Below are positions 2,160-22,197 of a stretch of DNA of 42,150 nt, in pieces (within the stretch, counting starts at the first letter, position 1; the number at the start of each line of letters is the position of its first letter). The notes under the pieces were generated by a model, which was not told the DNA's origin, made no database searches, and saw only the letters and a list, made by a program, of their open reading frames with translations. The position numbers and the translations under genes were made by a program. Source of the DNA: Nevskia sp. (GTDB taxonomy: Bacteria; Pseudomonadota; Gammaproteobacteria; Nevskiales; Nevskiaceae); contig JAUXYM010000115.1 in the NCBI GenBank assembly GCA_030694365.1, positions 1-42,150 of the forward strand, given 5' to 3'.

Positions 2160-2180
2160 GATGCTCCGTTTTGGAGCATC
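2160..2180. terminator. Hairpin after apt
   Basis: A perfect 8-bp stem, GATGCTCC/GGAGCATC, closes on a 5-base loop, 24 bases past the apt stop. No T tract follows, so it would be a weak terminator or an mRNA 3'-end stabiliser. A TACAAT at 2206-2211 shortly downstream could be the -10 of a promoter for the squalene synthase operon, but I see no good -35 at normal spacing. Confidence 0.45.
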
Positions 2181-2368
2181 GCGACGCCGTTACAGACAAG
2201 ATTGATACAATGTCGGCAGAAAATTCTGGCGAGCCATGCCCTTCTTCCGCCGCTTCAAGCCATGACTCACCCCATGATCCGCTCGATTCGGCCCAGAAAT
2301 TGGTACTGGCTGCCGACTTCAAAGCCTGCGATCCCGTCCCGCCAGCCGGCAACCGTATCGAATCCTTG

Positions 2369-3442
2369 ATGACGATCGAGCAATCCACCACGGACTCCCT
2401 GCTGATCGCGGCCGCGTTCCAGGCGCACATCCTGCCGGGCGTGTCCCGTACCTTTGCGCTGACCATTCCACAGCTGCCGCAGCCGCTCGGTGGCGTGGTC
2501 GCCAACGCCTACCTGCTGTGCCGGATCGCCGACACCATCGAGGACGAGCCGGCGCTGAGCCCGGACGACAAGGTGCGGCTGACGGAAGCGTTCGCCGATC
2601 TGGTCGGCGGCCGTGGCTCGGTGGCGGCCTTCGTCGATGAACTGTTGCCGAAGCTGTCGACGGCGACCCTGGCCACCGAGATGGAGCTGGTCAAGCACAC
2701 CCAGGCGGTGCTGACCATGACCCACAGCTTCGCGCCCGGTCCGCGTGCCGCGATCGAACGCTGCCTGCGCATCATGTGTCGCGGCATGTACCGCTTCCAG
2801 CAGCAGGCCGGGCCCGATGGCCTGCGTGATCTGAACGAACTGGGCCGCTACTGCTATTACGTCGCCGGCGTGGTCGGTGAAATGCTCTCCGATCTGTTCT
2901 GCGCCTACTCGGCTGATACTGCGAAGCGTCGCGGCGATCTGTCGCGCTATGCCGTGGCCTTCGGTCAGGGCCTGCAGATGACCAATATCCTCAAGGACAT
3001 CTGGGAAGATCGCGCCCGTGGCGTCAGCTGGATGCCGCGCCATGAATTCGCCCAGCACGGCGTGGTCATGATCGAGGTCGATCCGGCGAAGCAGGGCGCA
3101 GCGGTACAGCGCGCGCTGCAGGAGCTGGTCGCCGTCACCCATGCCCAGCTCGCTTACGCGCTGGAATTCACGCTGGCGATCGCCCCGGGCGACACCGGCA
3201 TCCGCAAATTCTGCGCGTGGAACATCGGCATGGCGCTGCTGACGCTGCGCAAGATCGTCGCCACGCCGGGCTATACCAGTGCTGCCGAAGTGAAGATCTC
3301 GCGGACGTCGGTGATGTGGACGATGGCGCTGACCAGCGTCGGCATCCGCAGCAACACCTGGCTTCGCTTCCTGTTCCGACGCACTGCTGCAGGCTTGCCG
3401 CAGATCGTCACCACCCCGGCTCAGGCACCGCTCGAAGCCTGA
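2369..3442 (+). CDS. Squalene synthase (farnesyl-diphosphate farnesyltransferase)
   Basis: Joins two FPP molecules head to head through presqualene diphosphate to give squalene for the cyclase encoded next. The 357-residue protein has the squalene/phytoene synthase fold signatures. The first aspartate motif is ADTIEDE (D55 TIED), the helix with YCYYVAGVVGEMLSDLF closely resembles the eukaryotic-type YCHYVAGLVG segment, and the second aspartate motif is NILKDIWED (D210, D214), followed by RGVSWMPR. The frame is open upstream to 2171, but that extension looks non-conserved and overlaps a possible -10 at 2206. I therefore use ATG 2369, just before the conserved domain; ATG 2210 is an alternative. 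Many hopanoid producers split this step among HpnC, HpnD and HpnE. A lone synthase here implies the one-enzyme route, although an HpnC- or HpnD-like partial activity cannot be excluded by eye. Confidence 0.85.
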   Translation: MTIEQSTTDSLLIAAAFQAHILPGVSRTFALTIPQLPQPLGGVVANAYLLCRIADTIEDEPALSPDDKVRLTEAFADLVGGRGSVAAFVDELLPKLSTATLATEMELVKHTQAVLTMTHSFAPGPRAAIERCLRIMCRGMYRFQQQAGPDGLRDLNELGRYCYYVAGVVGEMLSDLFCAYSADTAKRRGDLSRYAVAFGQGLQMTNILKDIWEDRARGVSWMPRHEFAQHGVVMIEVDPAKQGAAVQRALQELVAVTHAQLAYALEFTLAIAPGDTGIRKFCAWNIGMALLTLRKIVATPGYTSAAEVKISRTSVMWTMALTSVGIRSNTWLRFLFRRTAAGLPQIVTTPAQAPLEA

Positions 3443-12851: not shown

Positions 12852-12989
12852 GGGGTCCCTGTTCGTCGTCATCGTGACGGTCTTGTAAACTTCGGCCGTG
12901 AAATCGCCGCATCTGCCTGATTGCCTTTCGTGCCAGCCCCGTATTCGCGGGCTTTGCACGCTTCCGACCGCGAATCTCCTGCACCCTTT

Positions 12990-14018
12990 ATGAGCGTGAT
13001 GTCGACGACGCCGGACCTTTCCCGTCGTGCTGCGGCCCAGGCCCAGCCGAATATTGCGCTGATCAAATACTGGGGCAAGCGCGATCTGCGCCTGAATCTG
13101 CCGGTGGTCGGTTCGCTGTCGATCACCCTGGATACGCTGTGGACGCGCACCGAAGTCCGTTTCGATGACGCGCTCGCGGCCGATTCGATGACCCTGAACG
13201 GTCGCAGCGATCCGAAGCAGTTGAAACGGACCAGCGCCTGTCTCGATCTGCTGCGCGCGCGCGCCGGCATCAGCACCCGCGCCGAAGTGATCAGCGAGAA
13301 CAACTTCCCGACTGGCGCCGGCCTGGCCTCGTCGGCCTCCGGCTTCGCGGCGATGGTGATGGCCGGTGATGCCGCACTGGGCCTGAAGCTGACGCCGGCC
13401 GAGCAATCGGTGCTGGCGCGGCGCTGCTCCGGCTCGGCGGCGCGCTCGATCTTCGGTGGATACGTCGAATGGGCGCACGGCATCCAGGCCGATGGCGAGG
13501 ATTCGGTGGCCACGCCCTTGCTTGCAGCCTCGGCCTGGCCGCTGAGTGTCGCCGTGGCGATCACCTCGACCGCCGAAAAAGCCATCGGCTCGACCGAGGG
13601 CATGAACCGCACGGCCGACACCAGCCCCTACCAGCAGGCCTGGATCGAATCCCAGGACGACGATCTCGCCGAAGCCCGCGCCGCGATCGCCGCCCGCGAT
13701 TTCGAGCGCCTGGCCGATATCTCCGAACACAGTTGCCTGAAGATGCACGCGCTGGCCTTGGCCGCGAAGCCGGGCCTGCTGTACTGGAACGCGGCGACCG
13801 TTGCCGCGATGCACTGCGTGCGTGGCCTGCGGGCCCAGGGCCTGCCGGTGTTCTTCACCATCGACGCCGGCCCACAGTTGAAAGCGGTCTGCCTACCGTC
13901 GGCTGCTGCAGCCGTGGCCGCCGCGCTGCGCGAAGTGCCGGGCGTGCTGAACGTCGTCGAGACCGGTCTCGGCGGGCCGGCGCGGCTGATTCCGCTTGCC
14001 GATCTCGCTGCGGCATGA
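12990..14018 (+). CDS. mvaD: Diphosphomevalonate decarboxylase
   Basis: Last step of the classical mevalonate pathway: ATP-dependent decarboxylation of mevalonate diphosphate to IPP. The 342-residue GHMP-superfamily protein contains NIALIKYWGKRD (catalytic Lys region) near residue 20, the ATP loop PTGAGLASSASGFAA, SGSAARSIFGGYVEW, and the C-terminal FFTIDAGPQLKAV that supplies the catalytic Asp. These match true diphosphomevalonate decarboxylases rather than phosphomevalonate decarboxylases, and the presence of a phosphomevalonate kinase downstream agrees. ATG 12990 is chosen over an upstream in-frame start at 12921; ATG 12999 is also possible. It heads the tightly packed run mvaD, kinase, fusion enzyme, idi. 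Confidence 0.93.
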   Translation: MSVMSTTPDLSRRAAAQAQPNIALIKYWGKRDLRLNLPVVGSLSITLDTLWTRTEVRFDDALAADSMTLNGRSDPKQLKRTSACLDLLRARAGISTRAEVISENNFPTGAGLASSASGFAAMVMAGDAALGLKLTPAEQSVLARRCSGSAARSIFGGYVEWAHGIQADGEDSVATPLLAASAWPLSVAVAITSTAEKAIGSTEGMNRTADTSPYQQAWIESQDDDLAEARAAIAARDFERLADISEHSCLKMHALALAAKPGLLYWNAATVAAMHCVRGLRAQGLPVFFTIDAGPQLKAVCLPSAAAAVAAALREVPGVLNVVETGLGGPARLIPLADLAAA

Positions 14019-14034
14019 GCTGCATGAGCCTCTC

Positions 14035-15120
14035 GTGAACATCGTCGCCGCGGCACCCGGCAAGCTGGTTCTGCTCGGCGAATACGCCGTGCTCGAAGGC
14101 GCGCCTGCGGTGGCGATGGCCATCGATCGCCGGGCCGTGGCCCGGCTGACCGTGCAGCCCGGCCCGCATTGCGAAGTGTTCGCGCCGGACGTGCTGAATC
14201 AGCGCCTGCCGTTTTCGATCGACAGCAATGGCCTGCCGGACTGGCAGGCTGCCGGCGCGGCGGCGGCGAAGCTGAACCTGGTCGACGAAGTGCTGCGCGG
14301 CCTGGCCGATGAAGGCCTGGCGCCGGCCCCCGGCAGCGGTTTCAAGCTCGCCCTCGATACTTCGGCGTTCTTCGATACCGGGAACGCCGAGCGCCCGAAG
14401 CTCGGTCTCGGTTCCAGTGCCGCACTGACCGTGGCGCTGGCGATGGCTTTCGTCGCGCGCGCGGGCTTGGCCGACGATGCGGCGAGCCATGCCCGCTGGC
14501 TGCCTTGTCTGCTGGCCTTGCATCGCAAGTTCCAGGGCGGCCAGGGCAGCGGCGTCGATGTCGCGACCAGCCTGGTCGGCGGTCTGATCGCCTATCAACT
14601 GAACGATGGCGGTGCCACGCCGACGGCGCGGCCGCTGACCTGGCCAGCGGGCCTGCACCAGCGTTTCATCTGGTCCGGCCGCTCGGCGTCGACGCCGAAA
14701 TTCCTGGCTATCCTGCGCGCCTGGCGGCTAGCTCACGAAGCCGAATACCGGACCCGGATGGACGCGCTGGGCGCGATCGCCACGGTCGCCGTCGCCTCGC
14801 TCGCGGCCGGTGACGCGCCCGGCTTTCTGATTGCTGCGGCGAGCTACGCCAACGATCTGCGCGCGCTCGGCCTGGCCAGCGGCGTCAGCATCTATTCGGA
14901 AGAACATGTGGCGATTGCAGCACTTGCAGCGTCGCATCAAGGCGTGGTCTACAAGCCTTGCGGGGCCGGCGGCGGTGACGTCGGCGTGTTGTTTGCAACG
15001 GATCCGGAGTGTCTGACTGCAGCCGTTGCGCAGTTGGCCGCCAGCGGATTCGCCAGTGTGCCGCTGGCGGTCGATGGGACTGGCCTGCGGATCGCGATCA
15101 CGGAGAATGTCGAAGCATGA
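14035..15120 (+). CDS. Phosphomevalonate kinase (GHMP family)
   Basis: Predicted to phosphorylate mevalonate 5-phosphate to the diphosphate. The 361-residue GHMP kinase has AAAPGKLVLLGEYAVLEG at the N terminus, the ATP loop KLGLGSSAALTVA, GGQGSGVDVATSLVGG, and the C-terminal glycine-rich PCGAGGGDVGVLFATD. Motifs and length fit the bacterial and eukaryotic GHMP-type phosphomevalonate kinase. Mevalonate kinase is already supplied by the downstream fusion, which makes this role the likely one. GTG 14035 lies 16 bases after the mvaD stop. The gene ends in ATGA, overlapping the start of the fusion gene by 4 bases, so translation is probably coupled. Mevalonate kinase is the alternative assignment. 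Confidence 0.88.
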   Translation: MNIVAAAPGKLVLLGEYAVLEGAPAVAMAIDRRAVARLTVQPGPHCEVFAPDVLNQRLPFSIDSNGLPDWQAAGAAAAKLNLVDEVLRGLADEGLAPAPGSGFKLALDTSAFFDTGNAERPKLGLGSSAALTVALAMAFVARAGLADDAASHARWLPCLLALHRKFQGGQGSGVDVATSLVGGLIAYQLNDGGATPTARPLTWPAGLHQRFIWSGRSASTPKFLAILRAWRLAHEAEYRTRMDALGAIATVAVASLAAGDAPGFLIAAASYANDLRALGLASGVSIYSEEHVAIAALAASHQGVVYKPCGAGGGDVGVLFATDPECLTAAVAQLAASGFASVPLAVDGTGLRIAITENVEA

Positions 15121-17465
15121 GTGCCGAAGCCCAGCCCACCGCCCAGCCTGCGGACCAGTCCCCGGACAAGTCGCCCGACAAGTCGCCCGACAAATCGAGG
15201 ATCCCGGAGTTCTACAAGCTGTCGGTCAGCGAACGCGTGCGCCTGATGCGCGAGCGCGGCTGGGTGTCGGAAGCCGACTACCAGCAGATGATCTCCGGCG
15301 ATCACACCTTGTCGCTGCATCGCGCCGACAAGATGATCGAGAACGTCGTCGGCGTGATGGGTCTGCCGGTCGGTCTCGGTCTCAACTTCCTGATCAACGG
15401 CCGTGACTACGTGATTCCGCTGGTGGTCGAGGAACCGTCGATCGTCGCCGCATTGTCGAGTGCCGCGAAGATCGTTCGCGGCCCGGACGGCTCGGGTGGT
15501 TTCACGGCGGAGATGGACGAATCGATGCTGATCGGCCAGATCCAGGTCGTCGACATCCCCAACGTCCCGCGTGCCCAGAGCGCGCTGCTGAAGCGCAAGG
15601 CCGAGCTGCTGAACCTCGCCAATTCGCTGCACCCACAGATGGTGGCGCGCGGTGGCGGTGCCCGCGATGTCGAGATCCATCTGCATCCCCGGCCCGATGG
15701 CCGTGGCGACATGATGATCGTCCACCTCGTCGTCGACACCTGCGATGCGATGGGTGCGAACCTGGTCAACACGATGTGCGAAGGCCTGGCCTCGCTGGTC
15801 GAGTCGATCACCGGCGGCAAGGTGTTCCTGCGCATTCTGTCGAACCTCACCGACCGCGCGCTGGTCCGCGCCAAATGCGTGATTCCGGTCGCGCGCCTCG
15901 CCGGCAAGGGTTTTTCGGGCGAGGAAGTGCGTGACGGCATCGTGCTGGCCACCGATTTCGCCAGCGTCGATCCGTATCGCGCCGCGACTCACAACAAGGG
16001 CGTGATGAACGGCGTCGATGCCGTGGCGCTCGCCACCGGCAACGACTGGCGCGCGATCGAAGCCGGCGCCCATGCCTATGCGGCGCGGTCCGGCCGCTAT
16101 ACCTCGCTGACCCGCTGGTACAAGGGCGACGACGGCGCGCTGGTCGGCGAGATCGAGATTCCGATGAAGGTCGGCACTGTCGGCGGCCCGCTGCAGTCGA
16201 ACCCGACGGTGGCGCTGAACCATCGCCTGCTCGGTGCCACCTCGGCGCGCGAACTGGCGATGGTGATGGGCACCGTCGGGCTGGCGCAGAACTTCTCGGC
16301 CCTGCGCGCGCTGACCACCGAAGGCATCCAGCAGGGTCACATGACCTTGCATGCGCGCTCGGTGGCGCTCGCCGCGGGGGCCTCGCCGGAAATCTTCGAG
16401 ACCGTGGTCGAGCGGCTGATCGAAGGCGGCGACATCAAGATCTGGAAAGCCCAGGAAATCGTCGTCCAGGTCAAGAAAGCCCTGCGCCAGGGCGATAGCG
16501 CCGAAGAGCCGACCTCGAACGCGCCGCGCGCCCAGGGCCACGGCAAGATCATCCTGCTCGGCGAGCATGCAGTGGTCTACGGCAGCCATGCGATTGCCGC
16601 ACCGGTGCCGCTGGCGATCGAAGCCAGCGTTCAGGACGGCGACAGCGGCAGCCTCAATCCCGGCGTTGATCTGATCATCCCGCGCTGGGGTGTCGAGTCC
16701 CGGCTGCACAAGGATCCGGCGCATCGCGATTCGTTCCAGCGCAGCTTGGGCATCGTCTTCGACAAGCTCGGCCTGACCGAGCGCAGCTTGCGCATCGAAG
16801 TGTTCCCCAATGTGCCACGCGGCATGGGCCTGGGCGGCTCGGCGGCGATGGCGGTGGCGGTGATCCGTGCGCTCGACCAGCACTTCAAGCTCGGCCATAC
16901 CGACGACGAGATCAACGCGCTGGCCTTCGAGTGCGAGAAGGTCGCCCATGGCACGCCGAGCGGCATCGACAACACGGTCGCCACCTTCGGCAAGCCGCTG
17001 CTCTACCGCCGCGCCCATGACGGTCGGTCGCTGCTGATGAAGCCGCTGGCGCTGGCCAAGCCGATTCCGCTGGTGGTCGGCATTTCCGGCAAGGAAAGCC
17101 TGACGGCGAAAACCGTCGGCGGCGTCCGTGCCGCCTGGCAGAAGAACCCGGAACTGTACGAAAGCATCTTCCGGCAGATCGACGCGCTGACCCTGCAAGG
17201 GGTCGACGCGGTGCAGAACTATCAGCTCGAGCGCCTCGGCGATCTGATGAATGTCTGCCACGGTCTGCTCAATGCGCTGCGGGTGTCGAGCTGGGAAATC
17301 GAGGAAATGGTGCAGATCTGCCGCGAGCAGGGCGCCCTCGGCGCCAAGCTGACCGGCGGCGGCTGCGGTGGTTCGATCATCGCGCTGGCGCCGGAACATC
17401 CAGAAAAAGTCATCGCTGCGCTGCGTGACGCGGGTTATTCGGGCCTGGAGGTGCGCATTGGGTGA
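15117..17465 (+). CDS. Fused class II HMG-CoA reductase / mevalonate kinase
   Basis: One 782-residue polypeptide carries two consecutive pathway enzymes. Residues about 30-455 are a class II HMG-CoA reductase. They contain ENVVGVMGLPVGLG, the catalytic Glu in VVEEPSIVAA (E105/E106), DAMGANLVNTMCEG, the catalytic Lys in THNKGVMNGVDA (K294), Asp in TGNDWRAIEAG (D310) and His in LHARSVALAAG (H412). After a short polar linker (about 458-473), residues 474-782 form a mevalonate kinase: GHGKIILLGEHAVVYGSHA, the ATP loop PRGMGLGGSAAMA, HGTPSGIDNTVATFG and KLTGGGCGGSIIAL. All key residues of both halves are present. No stop or frameshift separates them. The N terminus carries an SPDK repeat. It overlaps the upstream kinase by ATGA and is 1 base from idi. 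Predicted output is HMG-CoA to mevalonate to mevalonate 5-phosphate in one protein. Confidence 0.95.
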   Translation: MSAEAQPTAQPADQSPDKSPDKSPDKSRIPEFYKLSVSERVRLMRERGWVSEADYQQMISGDHTLSLHRADKMIENVVGVMGLPVGLGLNFLINGRDYVIPLVVEEPSIVAALSSAAKIVRGPDGSGGFTAEMDESMLIGQIQVVDIPNVPRAQSALLKRKAELLNLANSLHPQMVARGGGARDVEIHLHPRPDGRGDMMIVHLVVDTCDAMGANLVNTMCEGLASLVESITGGKVFLRILSNLTDRALVRAKCVIPVARLAGKGFSGEEVRDGIVLATDFASVDPYRAATHNKGVMNGVDAVALATGNDWRAIEAGAHAYAARSGRYTSLTRWYKGDDGALVGEIEIPMKVGTVGGPLQSNPTVALNHRLLGATSARELAMVMGTVGLAQNFSALRALTTEGIQQGHMTLHARSVALAAGASPEIFETVVERLIEGGDIKIWKAQEIVVQVKKALRQGDSAEEPTSNAPRAQGHGKIILLGEHAVVYGSHAIAAPVPLAIEASVQDGDSGSLNPGVDLIIPRWGVESRLHKDPAHRDSFQRSLGIVFDKLGLTERSLRIEVFPNVPRGMGLGGSAAMAVAVIRALDQHFKLGHTDDEINALAFECEKVAHGTPSGIDNTVATFGKPLLYRRAHDGRSLLMKPLALAKPIPLVVGISGKESLTAKTVGGVRAAWQKNPELYESIFRQIDALTLQGVDAVQNYQLERLGDLMNVCHGLLNALRVSSWEIEEMVQICREQGALGAKLTGGGCGGSIIALAPEHPEKVIAALRDAGYSGLEVRIG
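15153..15197 (+). repeat. 12-bp tandem repeat coding SPDK units in the fusion enzyme
   Basis: Roughly four 12-base units, consensus GACAAGTCGCCC, encode DQSPDKSPDKSPDKS at the N terminus. Two central units are identical. The segment precedes the reductase domain and looks like a disordered tail, whose length could vary between strains. Confidence 0.8.
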
Positions 17466-17466
17466 C

Positions 17467-18063
17467 ATGAAGATGAAGGTCGGCGGCGGCGCGCATCAGG
17501 TCGTGTCGTTCGACGACGAACCGCTGATCCTGGTCGACGAGCAGGACAACGAGATCGGCCATCTGCTCAAGGCCGAGGCCCACATGGGCCGCGGCAGCTT
17601 GCATCGCGCGTTCTCGCTGTTCGTGTTCAATGCTGAAGGCGAGTTGCTGCTCCAGCAGCGTGCCGCGGGCAAGCGGCTGTGGGGCCAGTTCTGGTCGAAC
17701 ACCTGCTGCAGTCATCCGCGCCGTGGCGAAACCATGGACATCGCGATCCATCGCCGGCTCAAGGAAGAACTGGGTTTCGAGTGCCCGTTCAAGTTCCTGT
17801 TCAAGTTCCAGTACCAGGCGCAGTTCGACGAAACCGGCGCCGAGCACGAACTTTGCTGGGTTTATGCCGGGCGCAGCGATCGGGTGCCTGCGGTCAACGG
17901 CAACGAGATTTCGGCGGTGCGCTATATCGCCCCCGATGCGCTCGATGCCGAGATCGAGGCCGCGCCGGATCAGTTCACGCCGTGGTTCAAGATCGAATGG
18001 GCGCGCATTCGGGCGCAGCACGCCGAGGTCTACGCGCGGCAGCCGCTGGCGTCTTTGGCATAA
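17467..18063 (+). CDS. idi: Isopentenyl-diphosphate delta-isomerase, type I
   Basis: Interconverts IPP and DMAPP. This step is essential for a mevalonate-only supply, because that route makes only IPP. The 198-residue Nudix protein has the catalytic Cys in WSNTCCSHPRRGE, the Nudix helix RRLKEELGFE, and the Glu-containing HELCWVYAG. It is a metal-dependent type I enzyme, not the flavin type II. ATG 17467 starts 1 base after the fusion gene stop, so the two are surely co-transcribed. The frame is open further upstream within the fusion gene but without family similarity. Confidence 0.95.
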   Translation: MKMKVGGGAHQVVSFDDEPLILVDEQDNEIGHLLKAEAHMGRGSLHRAFSLFVFNAEGELLLQQRAAGKRLWGQFWSNTCCSHPRRGETMDIAIHRRLKEELGFECPFKFLFKFQYQAQFDETGAEHELCWVYAGRSDRVPAVNGNEISAVRYIAPDALDAEIEAAPDQFTPWFKIEWARIRAQHAEVYARQPLASLA

Positions 18064-18190: not shown

Positions 18191-19327
18191 ATGGGCGTTC
18201 CGCTTATCCAGCAGGTCACCGTCGCACGCTACCTTCTCGGCAAGAAGCTTGCGGGTGTAAAGCGCTATCCGCTGGTGCTGATGCTGGAGCCGTTGTTCCA
18301 GTGCAACCTCGCCTGTGCCGGCTGCGGCAAGATCGATTACGAGAAGGACATCCTGCAGCAGCGAGTCAGCGTCGAGAAAGCGCTGGCTGCCGCCGCCGAA
18401 TGCGGTGCGCCGATGGTTTCGATTCCGGGTGGCGAGCCGCTGATTCACAAGGAAATGCCGCAGATCGTCGCCGGCCTGGTGAAGATGAAGAAATTCGTCT
18501 ACCTGTGCACCAACGCGATCCTGCTGAAGAAGCACATCCACGATTACACGCCGTCGCCGTACCTGACGATGTCGATCCATCTCGACGGCCTGGAAAAGCG
18601 CCACGACGAATCGGTGTGCATGGAAGGTGTGTTCGTCAAAGCGGTCGAAGCGATCAAGCTGTGCGTCGAGCGCGGCTTCCGCGTGACCATCAACTGCACG
18701 CTGTTCTCGGGCGAACCGCCTGCCGAAATCGCCGATTTCTTCGATTACGCGATGACCCTCGGCATCGAAGGCATCACCGTGTCGCCGGGCTACAGCTACC
18801 AGCACGCGCCGCGCCAGGACGTGTTCCTCGGCCGCACCGCGTCGAAGCAGTTGTTCCGCGATGTTTTCCGCATCGGCCGCACGCGCAAGTCGAACTGGAA
18901 GTTCAACCAGTCGCCGATGTTCCTCGACTTCATCGCCGGCAACCAGGCCTACCAGTGCGAGCCCTGGGGCACGGTGACCTACAACGTGTTCGGCTGGCAG
19001 AAGCCCTGTTATCTGCTCGTCGACGAAGGTCATGTCAGCACCTACAAGGAGCTGATGGAAACCACCCAGTGGGAAAACTACGGTGTCGGCAAGAACCCCA
19101 AGTGCGACAACTGCATGGCCCATTGCGGCTTCGAAGGCACGGCCGTCAACGACACCTTCGCCAATCCGCTGAAGGCCGCGCGCGTGGCGCTGTTCGGCCC
19201 GGACATCGATGGCCCGATGGCGCCCGACCTGCCGATTCTTTACGGCAATCGCAGCGATGCAGCAGCGGTGCGGATTCCGGTCAGCGCGATCACCAAGAAG
19301 GCCAAGCCGGCCGCCGAAAAGGCCTAG
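18191..19327 (+). CDS. hpnH: HpnH: adenosylhopane synthase (radical SAM)
   Basis: Attaches the 5'-deoxyadenosyl group of S-adenosylmethionine to hopene, giving adenosylhopane, the first extended C35 hopanoid. The 378-residue protein has the radical SAM cluster motif QCNLACAGCGK (CxxxCxxC) at about residues 36-46, SIPGGEPLIHKE, and a C-terminal cysteine cluster CDNCMAHCGFEG, as in HpnH. ATG 18191 follows GGAGA at good spacing; the longer open frame runs through idi. Its product feeds HpnG, encoded earlier in the locus. Confidence 0.96.
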   Translation: MGVPLIQQVTVARYLLGKKLAGVKRYPLVLMLEPLFQCNLACAGCGKIDYEKDILQQRVSVEKALAAAAECGAPMVSIPGGEPLIHKEMPQIVAGLVKMKKFVYLCTNAILLKKHIHDYTPSPYLTMSIHLDGLEKRHDESVCMEGVFVKAVEAIKLCVERGFRVTINCTLFSGEPPAEIADFFDYAMTLGIEGITVSPGYSYQHAPRQDVFLGRTASKQLFRDVFRIGRTRKSNWKFNQSPMFLDFIAGNQAYQCEPWGTVTYNVFGWQKPCYLLVDEGHVSTYKELMETTQWENYGVGKNPKCDNCMAHCGFEGTAVNDTFANPLKAARVALFGPDIDGPMAPDLPILYGNRSDAAAVRIPVSAITKKAKPAAEKA

Positions 19328-19392: not shown

Positions 19393-20526
19393 ATGGATGC
19401 CGCGTTCTGGTTGGCCGTTCCTGCGGCTGTCATGTGGTTCGGCCTGTGGCTGGCCCCGTGGCGGCCGTGGAGCGTCCGCGAGCAGTTGGCACCGACCGGC
19501 TTCGGCCCGAATCATCAGGGCGGGCCGGGCGACATCGATCAGGTCACCGTGCTGATTCCGGCGCGCAACGAAGCGGAAGTCCTCGAGCGCACGCTCGACA
19601 GCCTGCAGACGCAGGGTTCAGGGCTGAACATCGTGGTCATCGATGACCAGTCCGATGACGGCACCGGCGACATCGCCCGCCGCTATCCAAATGTCGAAGT
19701 GATCATCGGTCAGCCCTTGCCGAAGGGCTGGGCCGGCAAGCTGTGGGCGCTGGAGCAGGGCAAGTCGCGGGTCAAGACTTCGATGACCTTGCTGCTCGAT
19801 GCCGACATCGCGCTCGAACCGGGCCTGCTGGCAGCTCTGCTGGCCCACAAGCGGGCGACCGGCGCGCACTTCGTATCTTTAATGGCCGATCTGCGCCGCA
19901 CTTCGTTCTGGGATCGCCTGCTGCTGCCGGCGTTCGTCTACTACTTCAAGCTGATCTATCCGTTCTCGGTATCGAATTCGCCGTCGAAATGGGTGGCGGC
20001 GGCAGCCGGCGGCTGCGTGCTGGTCGATACGGCAGCGCTTCGCCAGGTCAATGCCTTCGAGTGCCTGAAGGATGCCCTGATCGACGACTGCACGCTGGCG
20101 CGGCATATCAAGGACGGCGGCTACAAGACCTGGATCGGCCTGAGCCGCGGCGTCATTTCGCTGCGCCCCTACGGCACCCTGAAAAGCGTGCATGACATGG
20201 TGGCCCGCTCGGCGTTCACCCAGTTGCGCTACTCGAACCTGCTGCTGCTGCTGGTCACCGTGCTGTTCGCGATGGCCTATTGGCTGCCGCTGGTCGCACT
20301 GGCCAATGGCTCCTGGCTGGCCGCCCTGGCGCTGCTGGCGATGTGCGCGGCCTATGTACCAACCCTGCATTACTACGGCCTGTCGCCGGTCTGGGCGCTG
20401 GCCTCACCTTTGATTGGAGCGCTGTATCTCGGGATGACGTGGAGTTCCGCGATCCGGAGCTGGCGCGGCGTGCGCTCGAAATGGAAAAACCGCACCTACG
20501 AAGTTATGAGTCCACCGAATCAATGA
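19393..20526 (+). CDS. hpnB: HpnB: hopene-associated GT2 glycosyltransferase
   Basis: Membrane GT2 glycosyltransferase of 377 residues. An N-terminal hydrophobic segment (FWLAVPAAVMWFGLWLAPW) leads to LIPARNEAEVLERTL, VVIDDQSDDGTGDIA, the metal motif LLLDADIALEPG and the acid motif ALIDDCTLARHIK. Three or so C-terminal membrane helices follow (LLLLLVTVLFAMAYWLPLV and later). HpnB is defined by linkage to hopanoid genes, and its acceptor has not been established. ATG 19393 is chosen; GTG 19384 is an alternative only three codons upstream. It follows hpnH after 65 bases. Confidence 0.9.
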   Translation: MDAAFWLAVPAAVMWFGLWLAPWRPWSVREQLAPTGFGPNHQGGPGDIDQVTVLIPARNEAEVLERTLDSLQTQGSGLNIVVIDDQSDDGTGDIARRYPNVEVIIGQPLPKGWAGKLWALEQGKSRVKTSMTLLLDADIALEPGLLAALLAHKRATGAHFVSLMADLRRTSFWDRLLLPAFVYYFKLIYPFSVSNSPSKWVAAAAGGCVLVDTAALRQVNAFECLKDALIDDCTLARHIKDGGYKTWIGLSRGVISLRPYGTLKSVHDMVARSAFTQLRYSNLLLLLVTVLFAMAYWLPLVALANGSWLAALALLAMCAAYVPTLHYYGLSPVWALASPLIGALYLGMTWSSAIRSWRGVRSKWKNRTYEVMSPPNQ

Positions 20527-20709: not shown

Positions 20710-22197
20710 ATGAGCAAGGCAGAATTCGGCATCAGTGCCTTCGCGGCCTATGTGCCGCCGTATCGCGTGGACCTGCGCGAATGGTGCGAGTGGACCGGCA
20801 ACAGCTGGGACAAGACCCGCGCGGTGATCGGCGAAAGCTTCCGCGTGCCGGGCGTCGAGGAAGATGTTTACACGATGGCCGCCAATGCGGTGCTGGCGCT
20901 GATCGAACGCAATGACGTCGACCCGACGAAGATCGGCTATCTGGCGCTCGGCACCGAATCGAGCGTCGACAACGCCACCGGTGCGGTGATCGTCCGCGGT
21001 CTGGTCGATCGTGCGCTGGCTGCGAAAGGCAAGCCGCGCATCGCCCGCGACTGCGAGGTGCCGGAGTTCAAGCAGGCCTGTCTTGCCGGCGTCTACGGCA
21101 TCAAGGGCGCGATCCGCTATCTGTCGCACGACGGCTACGACCGCCAGGCGATCGTCGTCGCTGCCGACATCGCCGAGTACGAGCGCGGATCGAGCGGCGA
21201 GCCGACCCAGGGCGCCGGCGCCGTGGCGATGCTGCTGGAGCGCGATCCCAAGATCGTCGCGCTCGATCTGCGCAATGCCGGCAGCGCCTCGACCTTCCGC
21301 GGCCTGGACTTCCGCAAGCCGTTCCAGCGCTACGCCGGCCAGACCACCAGCGTCAGCGGCCGTCTGTCCGACTTCCCGGTGTTCAACGGCAAGTTCTCGA
21401 CCGCCTGCTATGTCGACGAAACGCTGTCGGCGATCGACCAGTTGCTGGCCAAGCGCGGCGGCGCCCACGGCCGCTATTTCCGCGAACTGGAAGCGGTGTT
21501 CATGCACCGGCCTTATCACAAGATGCCGGTCACCGCCTGGGCACTCGGCTATCTGTTCGCACTCGGTGCCGACGGCGCTCTCGGTGCCGAGGAGCTGAAC
21601 GGCTATTGCCTGGCCTCCGGTATCGAGCCGGCCCAGCTCGCCGCCGAAATGGCGGCGGTCAGCACGCGCGCCTTCGAGCCGGACTTCGAAGGCACGGTCG
21701 CCGAACCCTATCCGCTGACCGCCGGGCTGATGAAGGCGTTCCGCGAATCACCGACCTACAAGCTGGTCGTCGACGACAAGATGCGCCTGGGCTCGAAAGC
21801 CATGATGGCGATGGGCAACCTGTATTCGGCAGCACTGCCGGGCTGGCTGGCCGCCGGGCTTGAAGAAGCGGCGACCGCCGGTCGCGATCTCGCCGGCTGC
21901 GAAATCCTGCTGATCGGCTACGGCAGCGGCGACGCCTCCGAAGCGATTCCAGCGCGCATCGTGCCGGGCTGGCAGGCGGCCGCCAGCCGTATCCATCTGG
22001 CCGGCGCGCTCGATGGCACCGTCGCACTGAACGCCGAACAGTACGCGGCGCTGCACGAAGGCCGCCCGGCCCCAGGCATCGCGCCGGCTTGTCGCGGCAT
22101 CCGCATCGACCGCATCGGCGAGCGCCGTAGCGGCGCGCTGCAGGATTTCGGTGTGGCCTACTACAGTCTTCCTCTAGGCTTGCCGCCGACAGGCTGA
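20710..22197 (+). CDS. Hydroxymethylglutaryl-CoA synthase
   Basis: Condenses acetyl-CoA with acetoacetyl-CoA to HMG-CoA, the substrate of the reductase fusion. The thiolase-fold protein of 495 residues is longer than typical bacterial MvaS (about 390). Catalytic residues are in place: Glu in LGTESSVDNA (E83), nucleophilic Cys in FKQACLAGVYGIKGA (C124) and His in MHRPYHKMP (H266). The segment VEEDVYTMAANA is also characteristic. The extra length is mainly in the second half (EELNGYCLASGIEP onward) and the C terminus. ATG 20710 follows AGAGAAG. Functional context (reductase, kinases, decarboxylase and idi nearby) favours the mevalonate role over a polyketide beta-branching role. It is the last gene of the locus and may have its own promoter. 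Confidence 0.9.
   Translation: MSKAEFGISAFAAYVPPYRVDLREWCEWTGNSWDKTRAVIGESFRVPGVEEDVYTMAANAVLALIERNDVDPTKIGYLALGTESSVDNATGAVIVRGLVDRALAAKGKPRIARDCEVPEFKQACLAGVYGIKGAIRYLSHDGYDRQAIVVAADIAEYERGSSGEPTQGAGAVAMLLERDPKIVALDLRNAGSASTFRGLDFRKPFQRYAGQTTSVSGRLSDFPVFNGKFSTACYVDETLSAIDQLLAKRGGAHGRYFRELEAVFMHRPYHKMPVTAWALGYLFALGADGALGAEELNGYCLASGIEPAQLAAEMAAVSTRAFEPDFEGTVAEPYPLTAGLMKAFRESPTYKLVVDDKMRLGSKAMMAMGNLYSAALPGWLAAGLEEAATAGRDLAGCEILLIGYGSGDASEAIPARIVPGWQAAASRIHLAGALDGTVALNAEQYAALHEGRPAPGIAPACRGIRIDRIGERRSGALQDFGVAYYSLPLGLPPTG

Follow-up and report, generated by a model that had tools for sequence, protein, structure and literature searches.

The window analysed here, a stretch of 42,150 nt from Nevskia sp. 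(contig JAUXYM010000115.1 of assembly GCA_030694365.1), carries on its forward strand at 15117–17465 a gene that translates as one single open frame of 782 aa plus stop (Table 1). Its product combines a class II 3-hydroxy-3-methylglutaryl-CoA (HMG-CoA) reductase and a mevalonate kinase in one chain, joined via approximately 20 residues. In Pfam, the protein matches HMG-CoA_red, GHMP_kinases_N and GHMP_kinases_C, each above the cut-off. A preliminary description of this DNA had claimed both enzymes in one uninterrupted frame, and this is borne out, as there is no break in the 782 aa and both domains exceed the curated cut-offs. It had further set the protein apart from the thiolase-reductase MvaE; indeed, no thiolase family is among the 19 NCBIfam and three Pfam families matching it at E ≤ 0.001. 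About 26 residues lie ahead of the reductase domain, and within them a triple SPDK repeat was noted at residues 15–26 (window 15159–15194). An 839 aa frame on the opposite strand (14949–17468) is taken for an antisense shadow of the G+C-rich fusion gene.

Table 1. Features of the fusion locus and its surroundings in the window
Feature	Position	Strand	Remarks
Diphosphomevalonate decarboxylase MvaD	12990..14018	+	TIGR01240 289.6 bits, above cut-off; scanned as 12921-14018
Phosphomevalonate kinase-like GHMP kinase	14035..15120	+	TIGR01220 75 bits, below cut-off 165.7; assigned by position; scanned as 13996-15120
Bifunctional HMG-CoA reductase-mevalonate kinase gene (predicted)	15117..17465	+	782 aa; ATG overlaps the TGA of the upstream gene (ATGA)
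Class II HMG-CoA reductase domain	15195..16472	+	residues 27-452; E106, K294, D310, H408
Linker	16473..16535	+	residues 453-473; without ATG, GTG or TTG codon; one CTG, residue 456
Mevalonate kinase (GHMP) domain	16536..17462	+	residues 474-782; K477, E483, H484, S575, E607, S615, D618
Isopentenyl-diphosphate isomerase type 1 (IDI1)	17467..18063	+	TIGR02150 150.9 bits, above cut-off; scanned as 17368-18063
Adenosyl-hopene transferase HpnH	18191..19327	+	above cut-off
HpnB-like glycosyltransferase	19393..20526	+	358.6 bits, below cut-off 379.25
HMG-CoA synthase-like gene	20710..22197	+	TIGR01835 177.1 bits, below cut-off 360.35

The reductase half matches TIGR00532 (HMG-CoA reductase) at residues 25–413 with 416.6 bits (cut-off 259.95) and PF00368 with 359.4 bits (cut-off 27). 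In the AlphaFold2 model, Foldseek places it on the Pseudomonas mevalonii reductase (PmHMGR, 9dcp) with a TMt of 0.90, at 49% identity over 425 columns. Chain positions 83, 267, 283 and 381 of PmHMGR, which we take to be its four catalytic residues, align with E106, K294, D310 and H408. According to passages of PMC10070635, His-381 of PmHMGR sits in the closed flap, and His-376 is the catalytic histidine of the Enterococcus enzyme. Thus, the residues listed in the preliminary description stand for E105/E106 (EEPS, 105–108), K294 and D310, but the catalytic histidine is H408 and not H412. The latter corresponds to P. mevalonii chain position 385 and is also a conserved histidine, found in 67 of 67 fused rows, that is, aligned loci with both domains in one frame. 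K294, D310 and H408 are kept in all 67 as well. E106 occurs in 64; the remainder are two gaps and a histidine in L059, a locus with just the last part of the reductase in the kinase frame. The final part of the reductase, about residues 400–452, is the flap domain, modelled as three C-terminal helices (404–419, 427–437 and 442–460) at the end of the reductase domain. In class II enzymes the flap shuts upon ligand binding and shifts for cofactor exchange, as passages of PMC10070635 describe; they also name Asp146 and Leu148 as the NADH determinants of PmHMGR. In the window these two are replaced by H172 and Q174, the former being a histidine in 63 of 67 rows. These substitutions would argue against strict NADH use, but prove nothing; as a guess, the cofactor is NADPH, or both are used. 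A second HMG-CoA reductase homologue is found in the same genome (G000:C65:19909-21013; loci L002 and L003), but its reading is interrupted by a stop as well as by a change of frame. Only distantly similar to the reductase of the window (no blastp match at 1e-8), it is perhaps of class I, and either a relic or a sequencing error.

The kinase half matches TIGR00549 (mevalonate kinase) at residues 475–757 with 232.9 bits (cut-off 163.05), and Foldseek places it on the Leishmania major mevalonate kinase 2hfs (TMt 0.80; 33% identity over 331 columns). The motifs earlier listed for a complete kinase were all found: GEHAVVYG at 482–489, LGGSAAM at 572–578, TPSGIDN at 613–619 and TGGGCGG at 746–752. 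In the L. major enzyme, according to passages of PMC1851959, the catalytic residues are Lys18 and Asp155, and Ser112 and Glu144 are equivalent to the two residues that bind the metal in the rat enzyme; Glu24, His25 and Ser152 are described there as strictly conserved. By alignment, Lys18, Asp155, Ser112, Glu144, Glu24, His25 and Ser152 correspond to K477, D618, S575, E607, E483, H484 and S615. K477, E483, S575, S615 and D618 are kept in 67 of 67 fused rows and E607 in 66 (one D), while H484 is invariant across the 54 sequences of alignment A1. One oddity is C750 (codon 17364–17366) in kinase motif 3, where 64 of the 67 fused rows have a glycine. This residue is what could be held in favour of one half being catalytically dead and serving as a scaffold or regulator. 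We regard that as very unlikely, since both halves have their catalytic residues, which are shared by 64–67 of the 67 fused rows, no other mevalonate kinase above the cut-off was found in the same genome (which is 89% complete), and the sole other reductase homologue found there is the broken one.

The model of the window protein has a mean predicted local distance difference test score (pLDDT) of 85.4 and a predicted template modelling score (pTM) of 0.57; segments 1–24 and 460–466 fall under pLDDT 50. The kinase is attached to the last helix of the reductase flap. From residue 452 to 473 there are 22 residues in the window, and over the 67 fused rows this stretch varies from 10 to 60. A relative with a short linker (L054) gave a pTM of 0.59. 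Both folds are clear in these models and, as modelled, the mutual pose of the domains is undefined. A fixed inter-domain interface was considered for the window protein and L054 and rejected, as neither of the two models yields a defined pose. For the same reason, and because the linker is varied in length and weakly constrained, the direct channelling of mevalonate to its phosphate suggested before finds no support. The fixed stoichiometry suggested along with it does follow from the fusion, but only provided that the protein stays uncleaved. Twelve positions in the reductase and seventeen on the kinase side are specific for the fused rows (one residue in at least 85% of these, and in no more than 15% of the other rows). 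They include W443, in the final helix of the flap, and N619, which is adjacent to the catalytic D618. T466, counted among the seventeen, lies in the linker and is filled in few rows. These positions could be coupling residues. One may go further and imagine a two-step machine in which the kinase rides on the mobile flap and receives mevalonate when the flap opens once the second hydride has been transferred; such kinetic channelling appears doubtful.

The spread of the two-domain order, which it had earlier been proposed to map, turned out to be wide. A scan of a genome collection gave at least 582 stretches, 578 of them confirmed, and the best 80 were fetched. Of these 80 loci, 56 have both domains in one frame and 15 have them as two adjacent genes; for the other nine, the reductase alone was seen. 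When loci of later searches were added and 13 duplicates (from the own genome or from contigs already included) were removed, the set comprised 100 loci: 67 fused, 24 split and nine with the reductase alone. Isolates carrying the fusion are Dyella dinghuensis DHOA06, Wenzhouxiangella sediminis XDB06, W. limi C33, Rhodanobacter lindaniclasticus DSM 17932 and R. thiooxydans LCS2. The nearest named relative is a Nevskia metagenome-assembled genome (MAG; L004), 97% identical in each domain.

Within the genus, 17 of 18 genomes match, 13 of the 18 at full length without a stop. Two more are cut at contig ends and have both domains in one frame (G021, G026), and one is a fragment (G025). Among the other 40 genomes of the family the fusion occurs in two, both of the same genus. 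At the level of the order, matches at E ≤ 1e-60 were obtained for 36 of 85 genomes, and in 35 of the 36 the matched stretch includes sequence of both domains. The 36 consist of the 17 of the genus, the two other family members and 17 of another family (f3); the f3 matches all extend into both domains and contain no stop. Sampling of the class gave 31 matching genomes out of 369 at E ≤ 1e-20, nine of the 369 (own genome included) spanning both domains. One class member has a contig-end fragment holding parts of both domains (G238), and two flagged for stops proved on inspection to have single frames of 753 and 754 aa (G097, G291). Of 398 genomes sampled from the phylum, 15 gave matches at E ≤ 1e-60, and two of the 398, the own genome being one, have a match that spans both domains. 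For the phylum to which Corallococcus belongs, matches at E ≤ 1e-10 came from 150 of 195 genomes. The best 20 loci of these 150 comprise 12 split and eight fused ones, one of the latter being a contig-end fragment, so the fusion is present in at least 8 of 195. A MAG labelled as Planctomycetota (L039), which may be misbinned, has the fusion, too. On plasmids, 58 records had a match, and in none of the 58 did it cover 80% of the query.

This distribution bears on the possibility that an assembly or sequencing error deleted a stop between two adjacent genes. Such neighbours are real: many Myxococcota have both genes adjacent in the same order, and in L057, L058, L060 and L062–L064 they even lie in one frame with a stop between them. 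The open frame, however, occurs in 67 deduplicated loci from many assemblies, named isolates included, and at full length without a stop in the 13 Nevskia genomes mentioned, which makes an artefact scarcely conceivable. Stop readthrough was likewise discarded: the window has no stop, and the split cases sharing a frame show an ATG shortly ahead of the kinase.

In trees of either domain, the fused rows form one side of a single branch, with a support in the Shimodaira-Hasegawa-like approximate likelihood ratio test (SH-aLRT) of 100 for the reductase (97 rows: 64 fused, 33 others) and 99 for the kinase (90 rows: 66 fused, 24 split). Rows were excluded if the matched query stretch was below 380 residues (reductase) or 220 residues (kinase). 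These were short searches without bootstrap, and several long branches were flagged, some of them meeting. Since a single branch parts fused from unfused in both domain trees, one origin would suffice for the fused architecture, and the data can be explained by a single fusion or, in principle, by a single fission. In the first scan 13 of the 15 split loci have the order HMGR-MVK-MvaD (reductase, mevalonate kinase, decarboxylase), therefore the joining of neighbours is the simplest route. Dyella dinghuensis (L013) nests within Nevskia in both trees, and its flanks share HpnK, HpnJ, HpnI, HpnH and HpnB; a transfer of the whole cluster is likely. Compared with eight near relatives, the ratio of nonsynonymous to synonymous substitution rates (dN/dS) is 0.04–0.21 for the reductase and 0.07–0.25 for the kinase, and for the linker 0.20–0.77 in seven comparisons and undefined in the eighth. 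These ratios point to strong purifying selection on both halves, which would make a chance origin of the frame very unlikely.

The four genes MvaD, phosphomevalonate kinase (PMK)-like kinase, fusion and IDI1 form a mevalonate operon embedded in a hopanoid cluster. Upstream in the window are genes for farnesyl diphosphate (FPP) synthase, a squalene synthase-like protein, squalene-hopene cyclase, an HpnG-like protein, HpnA, HpnK, HpnJ and HpnI; from there the order is MvaD, PMK-like kinase, fusion, IDI1, HpnH, HpnB-like and HMG-CoA synthase-like. Five of these genes do not reach their curated cut-offs, namely those called squalene synthase-like, HpnG-like, PMK-like, HpnB-like and HMG-CoA synthase-like. 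For the squalene synthase-like gene (2171–3442) the best match is TIGR01559 (95.2 bits, cut-off 286.75), not HpnC or HpnD, all of them below their cut-offs. Most of the 56 fused loci from the first scan share this arrangement: where enough flank was available, the next gene upstream of the fusion is the PMK-like one, or a squalene synthase gene following the PMK-like one, in 46 of 51 loci, and the next downstream is IDI1 in 49 of 53. The enzymes Dxr and IspH of the methylerythritol phosphate (MEP) pathway were not found in any of the 18 genomes of the genus, while each family was detected in 9 of 14 controls. In Nevskia, the MEP pathway appears to be replaced by the one that bears the fusion.

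From these sequence comparisons, the gene very probably encodes one bifunctional biosynthetic enzyme, which makes mevalonate and then phosphorylates it. The N-terminal class II reductase would convert HMG-CoA to mevalonate, using two NAD(P)H, and the C-terminal GHMP kinase would phosphorylate the mevalonate coming from the reductase half, in an ATP-dependent manner. Three further enzymes encoded in the operon, the PMK-like kinase, MvaD and IDI1, would take the product to isopentenyl diphosphate (IPP) and dimethylallyl diphosphate (DMAPP). These two would supply the neighbouring hopanoid genes and, because the enzymes of the MEP pathway appear to be missing, all other isoprenoids. We infer that the protein stays uncleaved and that both halves are active. 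Its benefit would be equal dosage and a kinase held near the site of mevalonate release, pulling the reversible reductase forward. Passages of PMC12292504 report that a class II reductase from Ruegeria was assayed in the reverse direction, too, and therefore a nearby kinase could pull the reaction forward. With the kinase on a flexible tether at the end of the mobile flap, we favour such proximity over a tunnel.

Several observations weigh against a bifunctional biosynthetic enzyme. One genome of the genus has no match (G013), and in another (G012, L118) a stop interrupts the frame within the reductase part, leaving two open pieces. A possible start codon (ATG, GTG or TTG) is present in the linker of 29 of 64 scored fused loci (three of the 67 rows had no anchor motif and were left out). 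The best NCBIfam model for the reductase carries the name "degradative", and the PMK-like and HMG-CoA synthase-like genes of the pathway remain under curated cut-offs. The completeness of the own genome, 89%, makes absences in this genome alone weak, and Dxr is above the cut-off in 4 of 16 other fusion-bearing genomes.

Two separate proteins might arise by an internal start at such linker codons or by cleavage of the linker, so that the fusion would just couple expression. In line with this, the linker has a pLDDT below 50 at residues 460–466 and is variable and weakly constrained. Yet in 35 of the 64 scored loci, including the window, the linker has no ATG, GTG or TTG, and neither tree places a split row within the fused clade; therefore, the joined frame has been kept, something that free proteins would not need. 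We consider separate products unlikely. As for the name "degradative", the reductase might oxidise mevalonate for growth in the style of P. mevalonii. Against this stand the operon with MvaD, PMK-like kinase, IDI1 and HMG-CoA synthase-like gene within a hopanoid cluster, the failure to find Dxr and IspH in 18 of 18 genomes of the genus, and H172/Q174 in place of the NADH determinants of PmHMGR; furthermore, a kinase competing for mevalonate would hamper degradation. A degradative role is very unlikely.

With the class II HMG-CoA reductases (P. mevalonii, Delftia, Streptococcus pneumoniae; TIGR00532) the window protein shares the fold, the catalytic Glu, Lys, Asp and His and the C-terminal flap, but it bears a kinase at the C-terminus of the reductase and has not retained Asp146/Leu148 of PmHMGR. 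Similarly, it resembles the GHMP mevalonate kinases (L. major 2hfs, Methanosarcina mazei 6mde; TIGR00549) in fold and catalytic residues, but here the kinase is the C-terminal half of a larger protein, following a linker without ATG, GTG or TTG. The Myxococcota Corallococcus, Myxococcus and Hyalangium have homologous domains in the same order, but as adjacent genes in two open frames. The acetyl-CoA acetyltransferase-HMG-CoA reductase MvaE of Enterococcus, likewise a natural fusion, also joins two mevalonate-pathway enzymes, one of them a class II reductase. In MvaE the thiolase is N-terminal. There the partner is this thiolase, whereas in the window it is the next enzyme of the pathway, joined at the end of the flap. 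Passages of PMC13001223 on pathway fusions state that mvaE of E. faecalis encodes both thiolase and reductase and also name IspDF fusions; a reductase-kinase fusion is not named in these passages. Nor was a description of such a fusion found, by title or opening lines, among the matches listed in the literature searched, in agreement with the preliminary description, which knew of none. Both enzymes are long known; the new part is their joined architecture, as far as the searched literature goes.

Within the mevalonate pathway, the reductase step is usually seen as the bottleneck, and a usual point of feedback is mevalonate kinase; both are also stated in passages of PMC13001223. A natural, long-lived fusion of these two enzymes would offer enzyme engineers a ready-made two-step module. 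For evolutionary biologists, it would mark how the pathway was assembled and spread in the Gammaproteobacteria.

A scan for promoters and terminators between 12000 and 22500 gave one promoter-like site (1.2 expected) and 10 terminator-like sites (6.0 expected) and was not used. The four fusion-bearing genomes with Dxr above the cut-off are both Rhodanobacter tested, one member of the Natronospirales and the Planctomycetota MAG; weaker Dxr matches occur in two more, Dyella (239 bits) and another member of the Natronospirales (21 bits). The fusion does not replace the MEP pathway everywhere. In the two Rhodanobacter (L028, L030), which have the fusion together with Dxr above the cut-off, both isoprenoid routes may coexist.

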